DNA of 64,000 bases from the NCBI RefSeq assembly GCF_008298035.1, contig NZ_CP042910.1, positions 1,570,001-1,634,000 of the forward strand, given 5' to 3'. The position numbers and the translations under genes were made by a program. Shown here in pieces: positions 54,713 through 60,198 of the stretch. This DNA comes from Gimesia maris (GTDB taxonomy: Bacteria > Planctomycetota > Planctomycetia > Planctomycetales > Planctomycetaceae). Each line of letters starts with the position of its first letter. The first letter of the stretch is position 1. Below the pieces are notes generated by a model. That model had not been told where the DNA came from and did no database searches. It was given only the letters and a program-made list of their open reading frames with translations.

Positions 54713-55140
54713 AAGTTTCGTCCGTTGCTTGGATTTGAAGTGATATAGAAAAAACCGTTAGTGAGATCTGAAGCGATCCAGAGTCTCACTAATGTCAGCC
54801 GCTTGATATTATAGGATCAGAGAAAACAGAACAAGATGACATTTCCAGGACCTGCTTTTCTCAACTGTCTCTCAGTGATCGCTTTATGCTGAAAACGAGA
54901 TGAAAAGACTATTCCGAACTTTCCAGAGTCCACTAGAAATTATTACGTCTGTTGACTGTCAGACGTTGGTATTTATTCAAAGGAATTCCGAATGAGGGGT
55001 TTCCTTTGGTAAATCATCGACCTGGAATCCGGGGATCTGAGATTGAATCGGGTTCGGGTTGTTTTTTGCTGATTTTCTGTAAGTTTTATATCTACAGTGG
55101 TTTAGGTGCTGATGGGGCAGGTCGTTTCGCACGAAATTAT
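54713..55140. other. Region between tetR-like gene and prc, with leader elements
   Basis: 428 bp. The part next to prc contains the promoter and hairpin listed below. The rest, 54820-55140, is unremarkable; no RNA gene or terminator for the TetR-family gene is seen. Confidence 0.4.
54749..54813 (-). promoter_or_regulatory. prc promoter with a terminator-like hairpin in the 5' leader
   Basis: On the minus strand a perfect -10 TATAAT lies at 54813-54808 with TTGTTC about 15 bp upstream. Just downstream, TTAGTGAGA and TCTCACTAA (54792-54784 and 54766-54758) form a 9-bp perfect stem with a 17-nt loop, then CGG and T6 (54754-54749), then about 36 nt to the prc ATG. The hairpin plus T-run looks like an intrinsic terminator in the leader: attenuation, or 5' mRNA protection. 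Confidence 0.5.
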
Positions 55141-55752
55141 CTAAGAAGGCTGCATCAGTCTGGTGAGAGCCAGCAGGCAGTTGTTCCATAGTACCTGAAA
55201 TTCGTCGGAGTCGACTTTGTGGCCGGAAATCAGTTGGGCCAGTTGTGGCAATGTCGCGGGGAAAAAGACCAGAGCCGTAAAAATGAGCATCAGACAGACA
55301 GGGTCAAACTCGTCAGAGATGTCACCTTCCGCCTGCGATTGTTTCAGCCGATCAATGTGGTTCTGATAGTACTCTCTGCGCCAGGCATTATCGATCAGCG
55401 GTTCCCCCTGATTTTGCTGCGCTTCGTTGAGCAGAACCCGCACATAATTCTGGTCGCGCATGTTTTCTTTTACATAGAATTGCAGGACCTCGGAAATCTC
55501 TTTGGGGATTTTTTCGACGCTGTCGTTTCGCTCTTCGAGTTTGCGTTGCAGGGCTGCTTCGAACAGTCCCTGTTTGTCGTTAAAATAGCGGTATATCAGC
55601 GATTTATTAAATTTCGCCTGCCTGGCGATCGCTTCGATCCGAGCGCCATCCACGCCACGTTCTGCAAATTCAGCGATGGCCGCCTTGAGGATCGCGTCGT
55701 GTGAACGGATCACTTTCTTAGGCGGAATCTCCTCGGCTTCAGTCGAATTCAT
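55141..55752 (-). CDS. TetR-family transcriptional regulator
   Basis: 203 residues. The N-terminal helix-turn-helix (about residues 17-62) reads RSHDAILKAAIAEFAERG, then VDGARIEAIARQAKFNKSLIYRYFNDKQGLFEAAL, a classic TetR/AcrR N-domain. The C-terminal ligand domain is not assigned to a subfamily. It is divergent from an aldehyde dehydrogenase gene and the palindrome between them is a candidate operator, suggesting it controls that enzyme and the downstream cytochrome. Confidence 0.9.
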   Translation of the reverse strand: MNSTEAEEIPPKKVIRSHDAILKAAIAEFAERGVDGARIEAIARQAKFNKSLIYRYFNDKQGLFEAALQRKLEERNDSVEKIPKEISEVLQFYVKENMRDQNYVRVLLNEAQQNQGEPLIDNAWRREYYQNHIDRLKQSQAEGDISDEFDPVCLMLIFTALVFFPATLPQLAQLISGHKVDSDEFQVLWNNCLLALTRLMQPS

Positions 55753-56121
55753 AGTGGCTCCAAGTGTATAGGGAATCTGGAGTATAGCTGCAGCAGATTG
55801 TGAAGGGAAGAAGCCTCAGTGTCACAACAGAATTTCCAGCCGTGAAGCAGGACGACAAATTTTTCAGATTTTTGTTGAACTCAAGATTGGGGGGGATTAG
55901 GATTCAGTTGGTTGTAACGGTATCGTTACCAGATGTCCGTGCCTTTTGATGAAAAAGTGCCTTCCATTTCGATTCAGTATAATTCGCGGAGTGGTATTCC
56001 ACCGGTTAGGCAATAAACAGTTTATACTGTAGCGTCTCAAAGGTCATTTGGTCCGAGTACAGTTAGATCCAGAGACACTCTGGTTAATTGTGACGCGTCC
56101 TGGAGTCCTAATCCGGTTCGA
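55753..56121. other. Divergent region, TetR-family gene and aldehyde dehydrogenase
   Basis: 369 bp holding the palindrome below, a G-run and AT-rich sequence. The dehydrogenase frame is open up to 56017 with no ATG, so the start is uncertain in this stretch. Confidence 0.4.
55914..55929. promoter_or_regulatory. Palindrome, candidate TetR-type operator
   Basis: GTAACG-GTAT-CGTTAC (55914-55929), a 16-bp palindrome with a 4-bp centre. Its size and location between a TetR-family gene and a divergent gene are typical of TetR operators. The assignment to this regulator is inference. Confidence 0.45.
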
Positions 56122-57819
56122 GTGGGGGACACGATCCTGCATCAGCAATACGCGACAAATAGCGACCAGTCTAAGCTGGATCAGGCTTTGGATGAACTGG
56201 CAGCAACCAGCCGGTCAGAGGCTGGTCTGTCTGTTGCACGCCGAATCGAATTGACAGGGCAGTGTCTCTGTTGTCTGTCCCAGGTTGCTCGAGAATGGGT
56301 CGATCTGGCTTGTGAAGCGAAACGGATACCAAGGGAGAGTACAACCTGCGCAGAAGAAGTGCTGGCAGGGCCGGTATCGGTGGCCCGGTTCCTGCAGGTA
56401 CTGCTACTCAGCTTGAAATCGATTCAATCTGAGGGACAGCCACGTTTACCGGCATCACCGAAGGCAAAATCAGGGGAACAGATTCGCGTACCGGTGTTTC
56501 CGACCTCGGGAATATACGATTCTCTGGTGTTTTACGGACTGTCCGCAGAAGCCTGGTTGCCTGAGGACATTGGTGCGGAGACCCTGTTTGACCTGACCCA
56601 TCTGGAACAGACTGAGAATTCTGCTTTGCCACTGACACTGGTGCTGGGAGCAGGTAACGTTTCCGCAATCCCCGCGACTGATGTATTAACTAAAATCCTG
56701 CAGGATGGCGAGCGGGTGCTGTTGAAGATGAATCCAGTGAATGACTATCTCAAGACTGTATTCGAACGGTCATTTACCCCGCTGATCGATGCCGGGCTGC
56801 TCAGGATTGTCAGCGGAGATGCAGCGGCAGGCGCATACCTGGTCGCGCATCCTGCCATAGACCGGATTCATATTACCGGCTCAACACGGACACATGATGC
56901 GATTGTGTGGGGCAGCGATCCGGAGGAATGCCGTGCGAGAAAAGAAAGCAACCAGCCTCAGTTGGAGATCCCGGTGACCAGTGAACTGGGCAACGTTTCT
57001 CCCTGGATTATTGTTCCCGGTCGCTATTCTGAAAAACAGTTACAGTTTCAGGCGGAAAACATTGCCGCTTCCATCGTGAATAATGCGTCTTTTAACTGTC
57101 TGGCGACCAAGGTGATTGTGACTTATGCCGACTGGCCGGACCGGGATCGATTTCTGACGATGATTGAGCAGAAGCTACAACACATTCCTCGACGCTACGC
57201 TTATTATCCGGGCGCACCCGAACGCTGGCAACGTTTTGCCGGCGCTGAACCCGATGACAGACAGTATTTACCCTGGAAGCTGATTCGCGATGCCGATCCG
57301 GTTCAGTCGTCTCATTTGTTTCAGGAAGAATCGTTTGTCTGTGTCTGTGCCGAGACAGCACTCGAAGCAGAGTCAGACTCAGATTTTCTGGAGCGAGCAG
57401 TAGAATTTGTGAATCGAGATGTTTGGGGGACCCTGTGTGCCACGATTACGGTTCCAGATGCGTTTCGCCAAACAGACCACGCGACTTTGGATCGATGTAT
57501 TGGTAAGCTGAAATATGGAGCAGTGGGAATTAATCACTGGCCCGCTTTGAATTACGCATTCATGTCGACTCCCTGGGGTGGGGCTTCCGGGGCGACGCTA
57601 CAGGATGTCGTCAGCGGAATTGGGAACGTACATAACACTTACTTTCTGGCGGGAGTGGAAAAAACGGTACTCTATGGGCCGTTAACCCTGTTTCCGCAGC
57701 CGGTCTGGTTTCCTTCTCATCCCAATCCGGAAGCGGTGGGCTGGCGTCTATTTGATTTATATACGAAACCATCGCTGGGCAATCTGCTGCGAACCGGATT
57801 GACGGTTGCGTTAAAATAA
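56122..57819 (+). CDS. Aldehyde dehydrogenase-family protein
   Basis: 565 residues from a GTG at 56122; the frame runs open upstream to 56017 without another good start, so the N-terminus is uncertain. The ALDH fold is clear: the catalytic Glu288 in SELGNVSP and Cys326 in NASFNCLATK, the nucleotide-side HITGSTRTHD, and the PWGGASG near the C-terminal end. It would oxidise an aldehyde (or reduce an acyl group) with NAD(P). The N-terminal 150 residues are diverged from the classic ALDH. It lies 39 bp upstream of the beta-helix/cytochrome gene, which suggests the pair works together in an oxidation pathway. Confidence 0.8.
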   Translation: MGDTILHQQYATNSDQSKLDQALDELAATSRSEAGLSVARRIELTGQCLCCLSQVAREWVDLACEAKRIPRESTTCAEEVLAGPVSVARFLQVLLLSLKSIQSEGQPRLPASPKAKSGEQIRVPVFPTSGIYDSLVFYGLSAEAWLPEDIGAETLFDLTHLEQTENSALPLTLVLGAGNVSAIPATDVLTKILQDGERVLLKMNPVNDYLKTVFERSFTPLIDAGLLRIVSGDAAAGAYLVAHPAIDRIHITGSTRTHDAIVWGSDPEECRARKESNQPQLEIPVTSELGNVSPWIIVPGRYSEKQLQFQAENIAASIVNNASFNCLATKVIVTYADWPDRDRFLTMIEQKLQHIPRRYAYYPGAPERWQRFAGAEPDDRQYLPWKLIRDADPVQSSHLFQEESFVCVCAETALEAESDSDFLERAVEFVNRDVWGTLCATITVPDAFRQTDHATLDRCIGKLKYGAVGINHWPALNYAFMSTPWGGASGATLQDVVSGIGNVHNTYFLAGVEKTVLYGPLTLFPQPVWFPSHPNPEAVGWRLFDLYTKPSLGNLLRTGLTVALK

Positions 57820-57858
57820 CGAATTCATTTCAACTCATTTCTTGACAGGTTCTTTGAT

Positions 57859-60198
57859 ATGGCGCTTTATCAATGGATGACATGTTGCCGGGCAATTGCT
57901 CTGTCAGTGTTGATTCTGGGATGCAGCTTGCTGCATGTTGCTGTTTTAGCAGGTGCGGAGGAAAAGCCTGCGTTTAAACTGGAAGCATCGACTTATACCT
58001 TTTCACCCGGGCCTGAATTTCAGTTTGAATTTCAGTCGCGACTGATTCAGGCGGTTCCCGGTGATGTGCTGATTCTCAAAGCGGGCAGGTATGATTTACA
58101 CTCCGGTTTAAATCTGGTGACCGATAATGTCACTATTCGCGGGGAGGGACACGAAAAAACGGTGCTCTCTTTCAAGCATCAGACCGATGGCAGTTTTGGG
58201 CTGCTGGCCAGCGGGGACAACCTGGTTCTGGAAAATTTTGCCGTGGAAGATACCAGTCATAATGCCATCAAAGTTTTAGGGGCTGAGAATGTGACCTTTC
58301 GCGGCGTGCGCACGGAGTGGACAGGAGGCCCGAAAACGACAAACGGGGCATACGGGCTTTATCCGGTGCAATGCAAGAATGTATTGATTGAAAACTGTGT
58401 GGCGATCGGTGCCGCCGATGCGGGGATTTATGTGGGACAGTCAACGGACGTCGTTGTCCGTAACAGCCGTGCCGAAGCGAATGTGGCCGGTATCGAGATT
58501 GAGAATACGGTCAACGCAGACGTGTATGAGAACGTGGTCACCGGAAATACCGGCGGTCTGCTGGTCTTCGACCTGCCCGGACTGCCTCAAAAAAACGGGA
58601 GGCAGGTCAGGCTGTTTCGAAATCGCATCTTTAAAAATAACCTGGCTAACTTTGCACCTGAGGGAAATATGGTCGCTTCCGTCCCGGCGGGAACCGGAAT
58701 TCTGGTGATGGCCACCGATGAAGTCGAGATATTCGAAAATACCATCAGAGACAATCGATCGTTTAATGTGTCTGTCGTCAGCTTCCTGATTTTTGGAAAG
58801 AAGATGAAGGATCCGAATTACGATCCCTACCCGGAAGGTGTTTCGATCCATGACAATAAGATCCAGGGGGGAGGCATGGATCCGGACGGGGAACTGGGAT
58901 TGATTTTGAAGTCACTGGTAGGCACCCCGTTACCAGAGATTGTGTATGACGGCGTGATTGATTCTCGCAAGCTGGTTGATGGAAAGATTCCGGCTGAGAA
59001 AAGTTTGCGAATATCAAATAACGGGGATGTTCGATTTCTGAATATTGATTTCGGGAATCTGACGCCGGTTAACATTGCGACCGGAAAATATCAACCCGAG
59101 ACTGATGCGTCATCTTTCACCGGAGCACTGCCAGCGCTGAATCCGGTTGTGCTTCAACCTCATGGAAAACCGGAACCGACAAAAAATAAGGCATTACAGA
59201 TCTATTATGATGCGCCGCCTAAACTGTCTGAACTGGGTTTGTTCCAGGGAAATGGCGCGACACAGGAGCCTGTGAATGATGTGATCCCCTATGAGCTGCT
59301 GACAACGCTGTTTACCGATTACACTTCCAAACATCGTTTTGTGCGACTGCCTGCCGGAGAAAAAATCCGGTTTCAGGAATCCGGGGTACTGGAGTTTCCC
59401 GTGGGCAGCATGTTAGTCAAAACGTTTTCTTACCTGAAGGATCAGCGGGATCCGGGTGCTGGTGAACGCCTGCTGGAAACACGTGTTGAGTTTCTGAAAG
59501 AATCCGGATGGTACGGATATTCCTACATCTGGAATGAAGAGCAGACAGATGCTGAACTCAGCCTGGGGGGCGGGGAAATCGATGTGTCCTGGATTCACAC
59601 TGATGGCCAGGTACGATCCACCCGGCATCTGGTGCCGAATGCCAATCAGTGTATCAGTTGTCACAGCCAGAATGAAAAGTATGTGCCCCTTGGTCCTGTC
59701 GCTGCGAATCTGAACCGGAAGAATCACTATGCTGACGGAGAAGAGAATCAGCTGGCTTATCTGACGCGAAAGGGGCTGCTGCAGGGAACTCCCGCGTTGA
59801 AAGAAATCACAAAGCTCCCGGAGTTTTCAGAGCCTCGTTCGGGAACAGTGGATCAACGGGTTCGTGCATATCTGGCGGTGAACTGTGCTCACTGTCACAG
59901 CCCGGGCGGCAATGCGCGCACGACGGGGCTGGACCTGCGTTTTTCGCAGGAGGACCCTGCCCGGTGGGGCGTCTGGAAAAATCCGGTCGCTGCAGGCAGA
60001 GGCTCAGGCGGTCGCAGTTATGACATCGTACCTGGTGCGCCTGAGAAGTCGATCCTGATGCATCGTCTGCAGTCCAGTGATCTGGCAGCGCGGATGCCAA
60101 ATATCGGGAACCGGGTGATTCATCAGGAAGCCGTCGATTTGATCGGACAGTGGATCAGTGAAATGCCGGTCGAACGATCCGGTTCTGAAACCCCTTAG
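57859..60198 (+). CDS. Parallel beta-helix repeat domain fused to dihaem c-type cytochrome
   Basis: 779 residues with an N-terminal signal peptide (IALSVLILGCSLLHVAVLAGA). Residues 50-400 are a right-handed beta-helix: repeated short strands such as NLVTDNVTIRGEG, NLVLENFAVEDTSHNAIKV and ENVTFRGVRTEW, followed by NADVYENVVTGNTGGLLVF. From about residue 435 the C-terminal part is a dihaem cytochrome with CXXCH at 598-602 (CISCH) and 676-680 (CAHCH). From memory these correspond to TIGR03805 and TIGR03806, families usually encoded by neighbouring separate genes; here they are one polypeptide. It should be periplasmic or surface-exposed, and passes electrons; the substrate of the beta-helix part is unknown. 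Confidence 0.8.
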   Translation: MALYQWMTCCRAIALSVLILGCSLLHVAVLAGAEEKPAFKLEASTYTFSPGPEFQFEFQSRLIQAVPGDVLILKAGRYDLHSGLNLVTDNVTIRGEGHEKTVLSFKHQTDGSFGLLASGDNLVLENFAVEDTSHNAIKVLGAENVTFRGVRTEWTGGPKTTNGAYGLYPVQCKNVLIENCVAIGAADAGIYVGQSTDVVVRNSRAEANVAGIEIENTVNADVYENVVTGNTGGLLVFDLPGLPQKNGRQVRLFRNRIFKNNLANFAPEGNMVASVPAGTGILVMATDEVEIFENTIRDNRSFNVSVVSFLIFGKKMKDPNYDPYPEGVSIHDNKIQGGGMDPDGELGLILKSLVGTPLPEIVYDGVIDSRKLVDGKIPAEKSLRISNNGDVRFLNIDFGNLTPVNIATGKYQPETDASSFTGALPALNPVVLQPHGKPEPTKNKALQIYYDAPPKLSELGLFQGNGATQEPVNDVIPYELLTTLFTDYTSKHRFVRLPAGEKIRFQESGVLEFPVGSMLVKTFSYLKDQRDPGAGERLLETRVEFLKESGWYGYSYIWNEEQTDAELSLGGGEIDVSWIHTDGQVRSTRHLVPNANQCISCHSQNEKYVPLGPVAANLNRKNHYADGEENQLAYLTRKGLLQGTPALKEITKLPEFSEPRSGTVDQRVRAYLAVNCAHCHSPGGNARTTGLDLRFSQEDPARWGVWKNPVAAGRGSGGRSYDIVPGAPEKSILMHRLQSSDLAARMPNIGNRVIHQEAVDLIGQWISEMPVERSGSETP

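Follow-up and report, generated by a model that had tools for sequence, protein, structure and literature searches.

The locus considered here raises a simple question: on what, and with which partner, does a protein act that joins a parallel beta-helix to a two-haem cytochrome and is encoded directly behind an aldehyde dehydrogenase (ALDH) gene? The locus lies in a 64,000-nucleotide stretch of the Gimesia maris genome (G000:C1:1570001-1634000, hereafter the window), where a gene for a TetR-family regulator diverges from the ALDH gene and the open reading frame (ORF) of the fusion protein, one polypeptide with both halves, begins 39 bp past the ALDH stop. This layout had been read from the letters alone in an original prediction, whose coordinates for all three ORFs are correct. 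With somewhat less than even confidence, we propose that the locus is a TetR-controlled operon whose cytoplasmic ALDH and exported two-haem oxidoreductase would act jointly on a chain-like substrate. New here are the predicted AlgE-like fold of the beta-helix, which lacks the catalytic His and Asp of AlgE, and the likely remote relation of the first haem domain to cytochromes P460 and c'-beta. The features, with positions in the window, are as follows.

55141-55752, minus strand: tetR, a TetR-family regulator of 203 amino acids, divergent from the ALDH-fusion operon
55914-55929: operator-like palindrome GTAACG-N4-CGTTAC (in relatives GTAACGGTAACGTTACCG), conserved in relatives
56122-57819, plus strand: ALDH, 565 amino acids, GTG start, with a PF00171 match and catalytic residues kept
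57859-60198, plus strand: fusion protein, 779 amino acids, with a signal-peptide-like N-terminus, a beta-helix (TIGR03805) and a dihaem module (TIGR03806)
57988-59127, plus strand: beta-helix domain, about residues 44-423, closest solved fold the AlgE6/AlgE4 A-module
59194-59772, plus strand: first haem domain, about residues 446-638, P460/c'-beta-like, with CISCH at 598-602 and Lys521
59773-60165, plus strand: second haem domain, class-I-like, with CAHCH at 676-680 and Met746

The two halves of the fusion protein

The halves had been assigned to TIGR03805 and TIGR03806, and a hidden Markov model search of 57859-60198 against NCBIfam places both above their curated cut-offs: TIGR03805 (beta_helix_1) matches residues 59-366 at 396.1 bits (cut-off 141.5), and TIGR03806 (SO2930 family dihaem cytochrome) matches residues 453-769 at 373.5 bits (cut-off 313.3). 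The two CXXCH motifs lie at 598-602 and 676-680, and C598, H602, C676 and H680 are kept in 48 of 48 family members. A frame error splitting the halves, which would have undone the claim of a fusion, is ruled out, as a full-length match in a single open frame of 779-843 amino acids occurs in 12 of 17 same-genus genomes (the window's counted). For the other five, the gene is truncated by a contig end (G300, G301, G304), the contig stops just past the ALDH gene (G303, L139), or the gene has been lost (G295); TIGR03805 is above its cut-off in 14 of the 17. The fusion of a Gimesia sp. (L034) is 88% identical to the window's, and an AlphaFold2 model of the whole protein has a mean pLDDT of 92.4 and a pTM of 0.87.

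The N-terminus of the fusion looks like a signal peptide (judged by eye, not by a program), and the protein is probably exported. The LGC of the window's protein is not kept in L034, so that, again by eye, a lipoprotein signal is disfavoured and a plain signal peptide preferred. Among the separately encoded relatives, a loose lipobox-like pattern occurs in 14 of 40 beta-helix and 15 of 43 dihaem proteins.

The first half is predicted to form a right-handed beta-helix of the AlgE A-module type. By VIA-align its best solved folds are those of the mannuronan C5-epimerases AlgE6 and AlgE4 (5lw3, 2pyg; Z 33.8-33.5), the top match, with Z 33.8, covering 299 residues at 2.9 A and 21% identity; they also hold Foldseek ranks 1-4, and by VIA-align are followed by an alginate epimerase/lyase (Z 32.7), RbmB (30.5), polygalacturonases (from 29.5) and NosD (28.3). 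For AlgE catalysis, PMC8824271 names Y149, D152, H154 and D178. The AlgE motif YGFDPH reads YGLYPV in the fusion, which thus keeps the active-site tyrosine (AlgE Y149 is fusion Y165), whereas D152 and H154 are replaced by Y168 and V170; all 41 sequences compared have Tyr165, Tyr168, Pro169 and Val170. Because the catalytic His and Asp are missing, an AlgE-type epimerase function was rejected. Pairwise alignment of the motif stretch is weak (z 2.7, with at least 1 of 500 shuffles scoring higher), and the residue match therefore rests on motif and fold. A sequence profile of the beta-helix family run against the Protein Data Bank found no AlgE chain, its best matches being phage preneck appendage proteins and polysaccharide lyases, and in Pfam the half matches PF13229 Beta_helix (61.1 bits) and PF05048 NosD (38.8 bits, cut-off 23.6).

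The dihaem half, modelled alone, reached a pLDDT of 91.3, and its first haem domain looks like a remote relative of the cytochrome P460/c'-beta superfamily. For roughly the first 200 residues of the half, the top 13 VIA rows are all P460 or c'-beta (Z 7.5-5.3; the next row has 4.6), although values below 8 may reflect merely a common arrangement. Foldseek, run with the dihaem half, lists P460 at ranks 3, 5 and 9 (E 0.1-0.3), behind two unrelated rows and with nothing under E 0.001. P460 is not in the Pfam table at E 0.01, the likeness having been reached through the fold of the half alone: against the PF16694 cut-off of 27 bits the window's protein scores 11.7, and 18 of 48 members match at E of at most 1 (best 0.0072). 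Searching by sequence for a solved relative of the half gave none that convinced, only an unrelated protein and cytochrome c555/c552 coming up.

For an independent profile test, 18 planctomycete PF16694 sequences were extracted from 30 loci and reduced to 15 by dropping three near-copies or repeats. Against this set the probability was 77.8, rising to 86.8 for the combined N-terminal region and to 88.5, over 23 columns, for 19 remoter modules alone, while the C-terminal haem region gave 20.2 over 10 columns and the beta-helix profile 0.5. Sixty column-shuffled controls gave probabilities of at most 2.4 and scores of at most 20.3, against 42.6 for the real profile. Along the Viterbi path FPxGTxLIK comes first, then Trp and then CXXCH. 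The domain probably has the fold of the superfamily, and it shows the order G-[ST]-x3-K, Trp, CXXCH and a lysine at the cross-link position; it differs in lying below the PF16694 cut-off and in being part of a two-haem module. Proteins with PF16694 occur in 26 of 199 planctomycete genomes; the sequences analysed in a 2025 review are proteobacterial (PMC11928373).

The cross-linking lysine of P460 is Lys106 in NsP460, and the position is Phe or Met in three cytochromes c'-beta (PMC11928373, Table 2). Lys521 of the fusion aligns with the lysine of the PF16694 rows that corresponds to Lys106, the K of GTVIVKE, as counted along the 6amg alignment. It is invariant in 67 of 67 sequences: all 48 family members have it, as do all 19 remoter modules, among which four were shown to be GSDH-joined, and by reading of the alignment a lysine is present in 13 of the 15 PF16694 rows. 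The invariant E540 falls near the position of the distal carboxylate of P460, in an alignment uncertain by one or more residues there. In the second haem domain, which matches PSCyt1 at 23.2 bits (cut-off 22) when the half is searched alone and at 19.1 bits within the whole protein, the sixth ligand is likely Met746, whose Met-Pro motif is found in 47 of 48 family members (the other has a gap) and in 19 of 19 remoter modules.

The dihaem module is also found behind a different head. The window's genome encodes a 992-residue protein (L002, G000:C1:5811039-5812007) that combines a GSDH domain (PF07995) with a like dihaem module and a third CXXCH, and the same joining occurs in 3 of 3 other planctomycete ORFs scanned; the partner of the module is therefore a substrate domain elsewhere too. 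These proteins carry a homologous module and share most of its invariant residues, but differ from the window's family in having a sugar-dehydrogenase head in place of the beta-helix and in not keeping K707 and F485.

Regulation, neighbourhood and the ALDH

TetR is encoded on the minus strand at 55141-55752 and the ALDH on the plus strand from 56122, in the divergent arrangement originally described. The TetR_N domain (PF00440) scores 55.5 bits against a Pfam cut-off of 24, and the C-terminus has TetR_C_21/29 matches slightly below cut-off. Within the 369-bp gap between the genes, the palindrome GTAACG-GTAT-CGTTAC is present at 55914-55929 as had been noted. The gap holds 21 inverted pairs with arms of at least 6 nt at any spacing, so the repeat alone is no better than chance and its weight rests on conservation: GTAACGGTAACGTTAC occurs in 14 of 14 relatives in which the start of tetR is present, 156-171 bp upstream of that gene, and the 18 columns over the palindrome are the best conserved of the aligned intergenic region (mean 0.993). 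The exact 14-mer CGGTAACGTTACCG has one copy per genome, at the palindrome site, in 9 of 9 other same-genus genomes. The element is operator-like, and TetR may repress the operon through it. The window's genome has no exact GGTAACGTTACC, its site reading GGTATCGTTACC, and with at most one mismatch that 12-mer is found at 10 places against 16 for a reversed control; we therefore do not claim a wider regulon. Of the nine further one-mismatch places, three (G000:C1:102895, 2560285 and 3713940) carry the window variant.

The order of the genes is kept across the genus. Among 15 relative loci analysed in detail (L120, L132-L145), a tetR homologue (65-85% identity) is divergent in 14, the contig of the 15th beginning within the unit, and the ALDH gene lies immediately 5' of the beta-helix gene in 14, the remaining contig ending at that point. 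In a second genus (G024, L146), an ALDH of 46% identity again lies directly 5' of the fusion, but the regulator gene there is of the MarR type, not tetR. A gene for a DUF1559 protein (PF07596, from a Pfam search of one member) stands between tetR and the ALDH gene in 14 of the 15 relatives and is absent from L133 and the window; its product is pseudopilin-like, and the gene sits inside the putative operon.

One genome of the genus has lost the unit as a block. In G295 (L212, G295:C1:2940000-2952500) the flanks are 87-88% identical to the window's, and about 4.5 kb matching window positions 55539-60048 are gone, that is, the 5' part of tetR, the palindrome, the ALDH gene and most of the fusion gene. 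An internal piece of tetR (window 55339-55538) is left at 75% identity, and window positions 55001-55338 are unaligned. At the deletion junction the aligned segments share a 4-base overlap.

The ALDH itself matches PF00171 over a short but significant stretch (36.7 bits, cut-off 23), and its E288, C326, K202 and N179, which align with two canonical ALDHs, are all kept in 36 of 36 alignment rows besides the window's own (one of these rows is the window's gene again, and one genome is present twice). By its sequence it belongs to a distinct subfamily of about 550-580 amino acids with the motifs LGAGN, KMNPV, SELG and FNC, in that order, LGAGN standing where canonical ALDHs have IPWN. No named NCBIfam equivalog (StyD, BADH, ExaC and others) was reached, the best scoring 27.7 bits against 800. 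By eye, without a program, no signal peptide is visible; because of this and of the retained catalytic residues, the enzyme should act in the cytoplasm. Of the original prediction, the palindrome holds up as conserved and operator-like, but a regulated periplasmic oxidation system as a description of the whole went too far, as the fusion has a signal-peptide-like start and the ALDH does not. The gene occurs in 16 of 17 genomes of the genus and, across the phylum, in 19 of 246 genomes at E 1e-5.

Proposed function and competing explanations

We hypothesize that TetR, bound at the palindrome, would keep the operon repressed as long as no substrate or product is there to induce it. The beta-helix head of the exported fusion would bind a probably chain-like substrate, a sugar or long-chain compound, in an AlgE-type groove and without an epimerase or lyase reaction; electrons would enter the P460-like haem domain and pass through the His/Met, class-I-like haem 2 to the respiratory chain. 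An aldehyde formed or released by the fusion would then be oxidised inside the cell by the ALDH. As to the substrate, alcohols or aldehydes and uronate-like chains are our leading guesses. The genes and their order, the fusion, the predicted folds, the conserved palindrome and the block loss in G295 stand as observations, whereas export, the direction of electron flow, the class of substrate, joint action with the ALDH and repression are inferred.

This proposal draws on the presence of both families in one ORF, the single branch that holds the fused modules, the conserved palindrome, the GSDH-joined modules, the tetR-ALDH-fusion order in the genus and the ALDH-fusion adjacency beside MarR in a second genus, and also on neighbours of the two components elsewhere. 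Among nine proteobacterial loci that contain the full TIGR03805/TIGR03806 pair (L042, L047, L079, L114, L203-L206, L210), six, two of them Kangiella, have an adjoining gene for a TonB receptor, and at one of the six, L205, a PQQ dehydrogenase is also nearby. L042 has a divergent TetR, and the regulator beside the pair in Kangiella has a sub-threshold TetR match (18.3 bits). Relatives of the ALDH (34-38% identity) were found in six annotated plasmid regions, an acyl-CoA ligase gene adjoining in four (Polaromonas, Sulfitobacter, Klebsiella and one Streptomyces), two of which also have a GMC oxidoreductase; a GMC gene stands beside an ALDH relative in one planctomycete (L165). The Polaromonas plasmid pPNAP01 (L169) encodes an ALDH that is 34% identical over 98% of its length and has the same motifs, in an operon, presumably for alkane or alcohol oxidation, with a fused ferredoxin/reductase/FA_desaturase-type protein, GMC, acyl-CoA ligase, ALDH and OmpW. 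There is no beta-helix or dihaem gene in its annotated stretch, and the window, unlike pPNAP01, has no hydroxylase, GMC or ligase gene directly adjoining the ALDH. For two records labelled as Klebsiella plasmids (CP125156.1, NZ_CP098173.1) the label looks doubtful, given a chromosome-like size (5.4 Mb) or the presence of genes such as potABCD and phoPQ.

Several results weigh against the proposal. Of 47 other genomes with the TIGR03805/TIGR03806 pair (the genomes of 47 of 80 loci), 46 gave no match to the ALDH at E 1e-20, and the pair therefore works without it. The queries used found no TonB receptor at three of the nine proteobacterial loci, and two plasmid regions of the six (Tsukamurella and another Streptomyces) have neither ligase nor GMC. 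ORF clustering of loci L034 onward revealed no neighbour of separate pairs common beyond a lineage, all such sharing being lineage-wide synteny. Native P460 potentials are tabulated as -340 to -424 mV (PMC11928373); should the P460-type haem be cross-linked, its potential would be very low, which is odd for a simple acceptor.

The scarcity of the ALDH beside the pair would suit an explanation in which ALDH and fusion are mere co-transcribed neighbours, TetR serving aldehyde-stress control and the fusion being an unrelated electron-transfer protein. In line with this, the association, seen in this genus and in a single genome of another, is not general. Of 12 further ALDH loci from planctomycetes, 7 were readable and none of these has the pair adjacent (L158, L159, L160, L166 and L168 had no ORF call). 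We nevertheless regard it as rather unlikely, given the adjacency in 14 of 15 relative loci and its recurrence in a second genus, where the ALDH is 46% identical and the regulator a different one; the joint loss in G295 points the same way, though one deletion removes neighbours whatever their roles. A NosD-like role, in which the beta-helix would be a maturation or delivery factor for a periplasmic metalloenzyme and the cytochrome its electron source, would fit the NosD fold match and the PF05048 score, which exceeds its cut-off; the more specific TIGR04247 is weak (33.2 bits, cut-off 300), AlgE is the closer fold, PF13229 outscores NosD, and among the ORFs at 52-64 kb no ABC transporter was recognised by eye, without a search. 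This role is very improbable.

An explanation of another kind places catalysis in the haem, such that the P460-like haem, cross-linked to Lys521, would oxidise a small molecule and the beta-helix would merely dock the enzyme on a polymer or surface. The fold and profile relation to P460, the ordered alignment of Trp and CXXCH, and a lysine where three cytochromes c'-beta have Phe or Met are what it would predict. The missed PF16694 cut-off, the modest Z and the unrelated rows that lead the Foldseek list speak against it, as does the distal carboxylate, whose equivalent could not be placed; the lysine is, moreover, kept in the GSDH-joined modules, where the haem should be an acceptor. We consider it improbable. 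A broader conjecture, also unlikely though slightly less so, is that the SO2930 family is a hidden branch of the P460 superfamily, with an open, Lys-cross-linked catalytic haem 1, a class-I relay haem and exchangeable substrate heads (AlgE-like beta-helix or GSDH-type), here in one polypeptide under TetR control.

Joint action of ALDH and fusion on a chain-like substrate remains our preferred interpretation. Two widespread families to which no function has been assigned gain structural leads from the analysis, an AlgE-type groove that lacks the catalytic base and a P460-like haem domain whose lysine is invariant, and the planctomycete fusion offers a single protein to purify, with the conserved palindrome as a route to the inducer. 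Were the lysine cross-linked, the reach of P460 chemistry would include a two-haem family present in several phyla. Our literature search found no mention of TIGR03806 and no substrate; TIGR03805 occurs once each in PMC3584217 and PMC5847202, SO_2930 is only listed, as an outer-membrane or extracellular cytochrome, in PMC4837345, and the dihaem papers listed concern other proteins. It found no work linking the beta-helix with alkane or with planctomycetes, nor P460 with PQQ.

Fused and separate pairs

The two families had been described as normally encoded by adjacent separate genes, and this is indeed the usual arrangement: in 115 loci, 65 have separate genes and 11 (in 9 genomes) a fusion, 28 have one half called and 11 have no call (L003, L004, L020, L023, L024, L029, L031, L033, L038, L073, L115). 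The fused loci include the window's genome twice and G227 twice, and the separate ones include some genomes twice (for example L006 and L071); the one-half loci include modules linked to GSDH, two loci of Gimesia truncated by contig ends, and high-GC loci at which a greedy choice of ORFs missed a half. The window's protein agrees with the annotated pair ("parallel beta-helix domain-containing protein" and "SO2930 family diheme c-type cytochrome") in passing both cut-offs with the beta-helix first, and differs in being one polypeptide. That fusion implies joint action, as the original prediction argued, is reasonable, but it is not new evidence, adjacency having already implied as much. The NCBIfam text of TIGR03805 already allows for a fused pair.

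Across the phylum, 12 of 294 genomes have TIGR03806 above its cut-off, 7 with frames of 779-872 amino acids (fused) and 5 with frames of 340-393. In a maximum-likelihood tree of 54 modules, a single branch with support 100/95 sets off the 8 fused rows; this branch is present in 100% of 200 bootstrap trees, and three separate planctomycete modules are placed elsewhere. Among the loci sampled, the tree therefore indicates a single origin of the fusion, within the planctomycetes (Planctomycetaceae and one metagenome-assembled genome of Pirellulaceae).

Around the separate pairs, the widest neighbour is a gene for a cyclic-nucleotide-binding-domain protein (Pfam on one member), found at 14 loci, all Bacteroidota, and lying directly 5' of the beta-helix gene on the same strand at 11 of them (L049-L053, L055, L056, L058-L060, L094). 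One neighbour survey used a fixed set of 18 queries. At three loci, in Ruegeria and two Kangiella-class genomes (L115, L207, L208), a TIGR03805 beta-helix without TIGR03806 stands beside a gene for a CCP_MauG-type dihaem peroxidase, L115 and L207 also having a cytochrome c.

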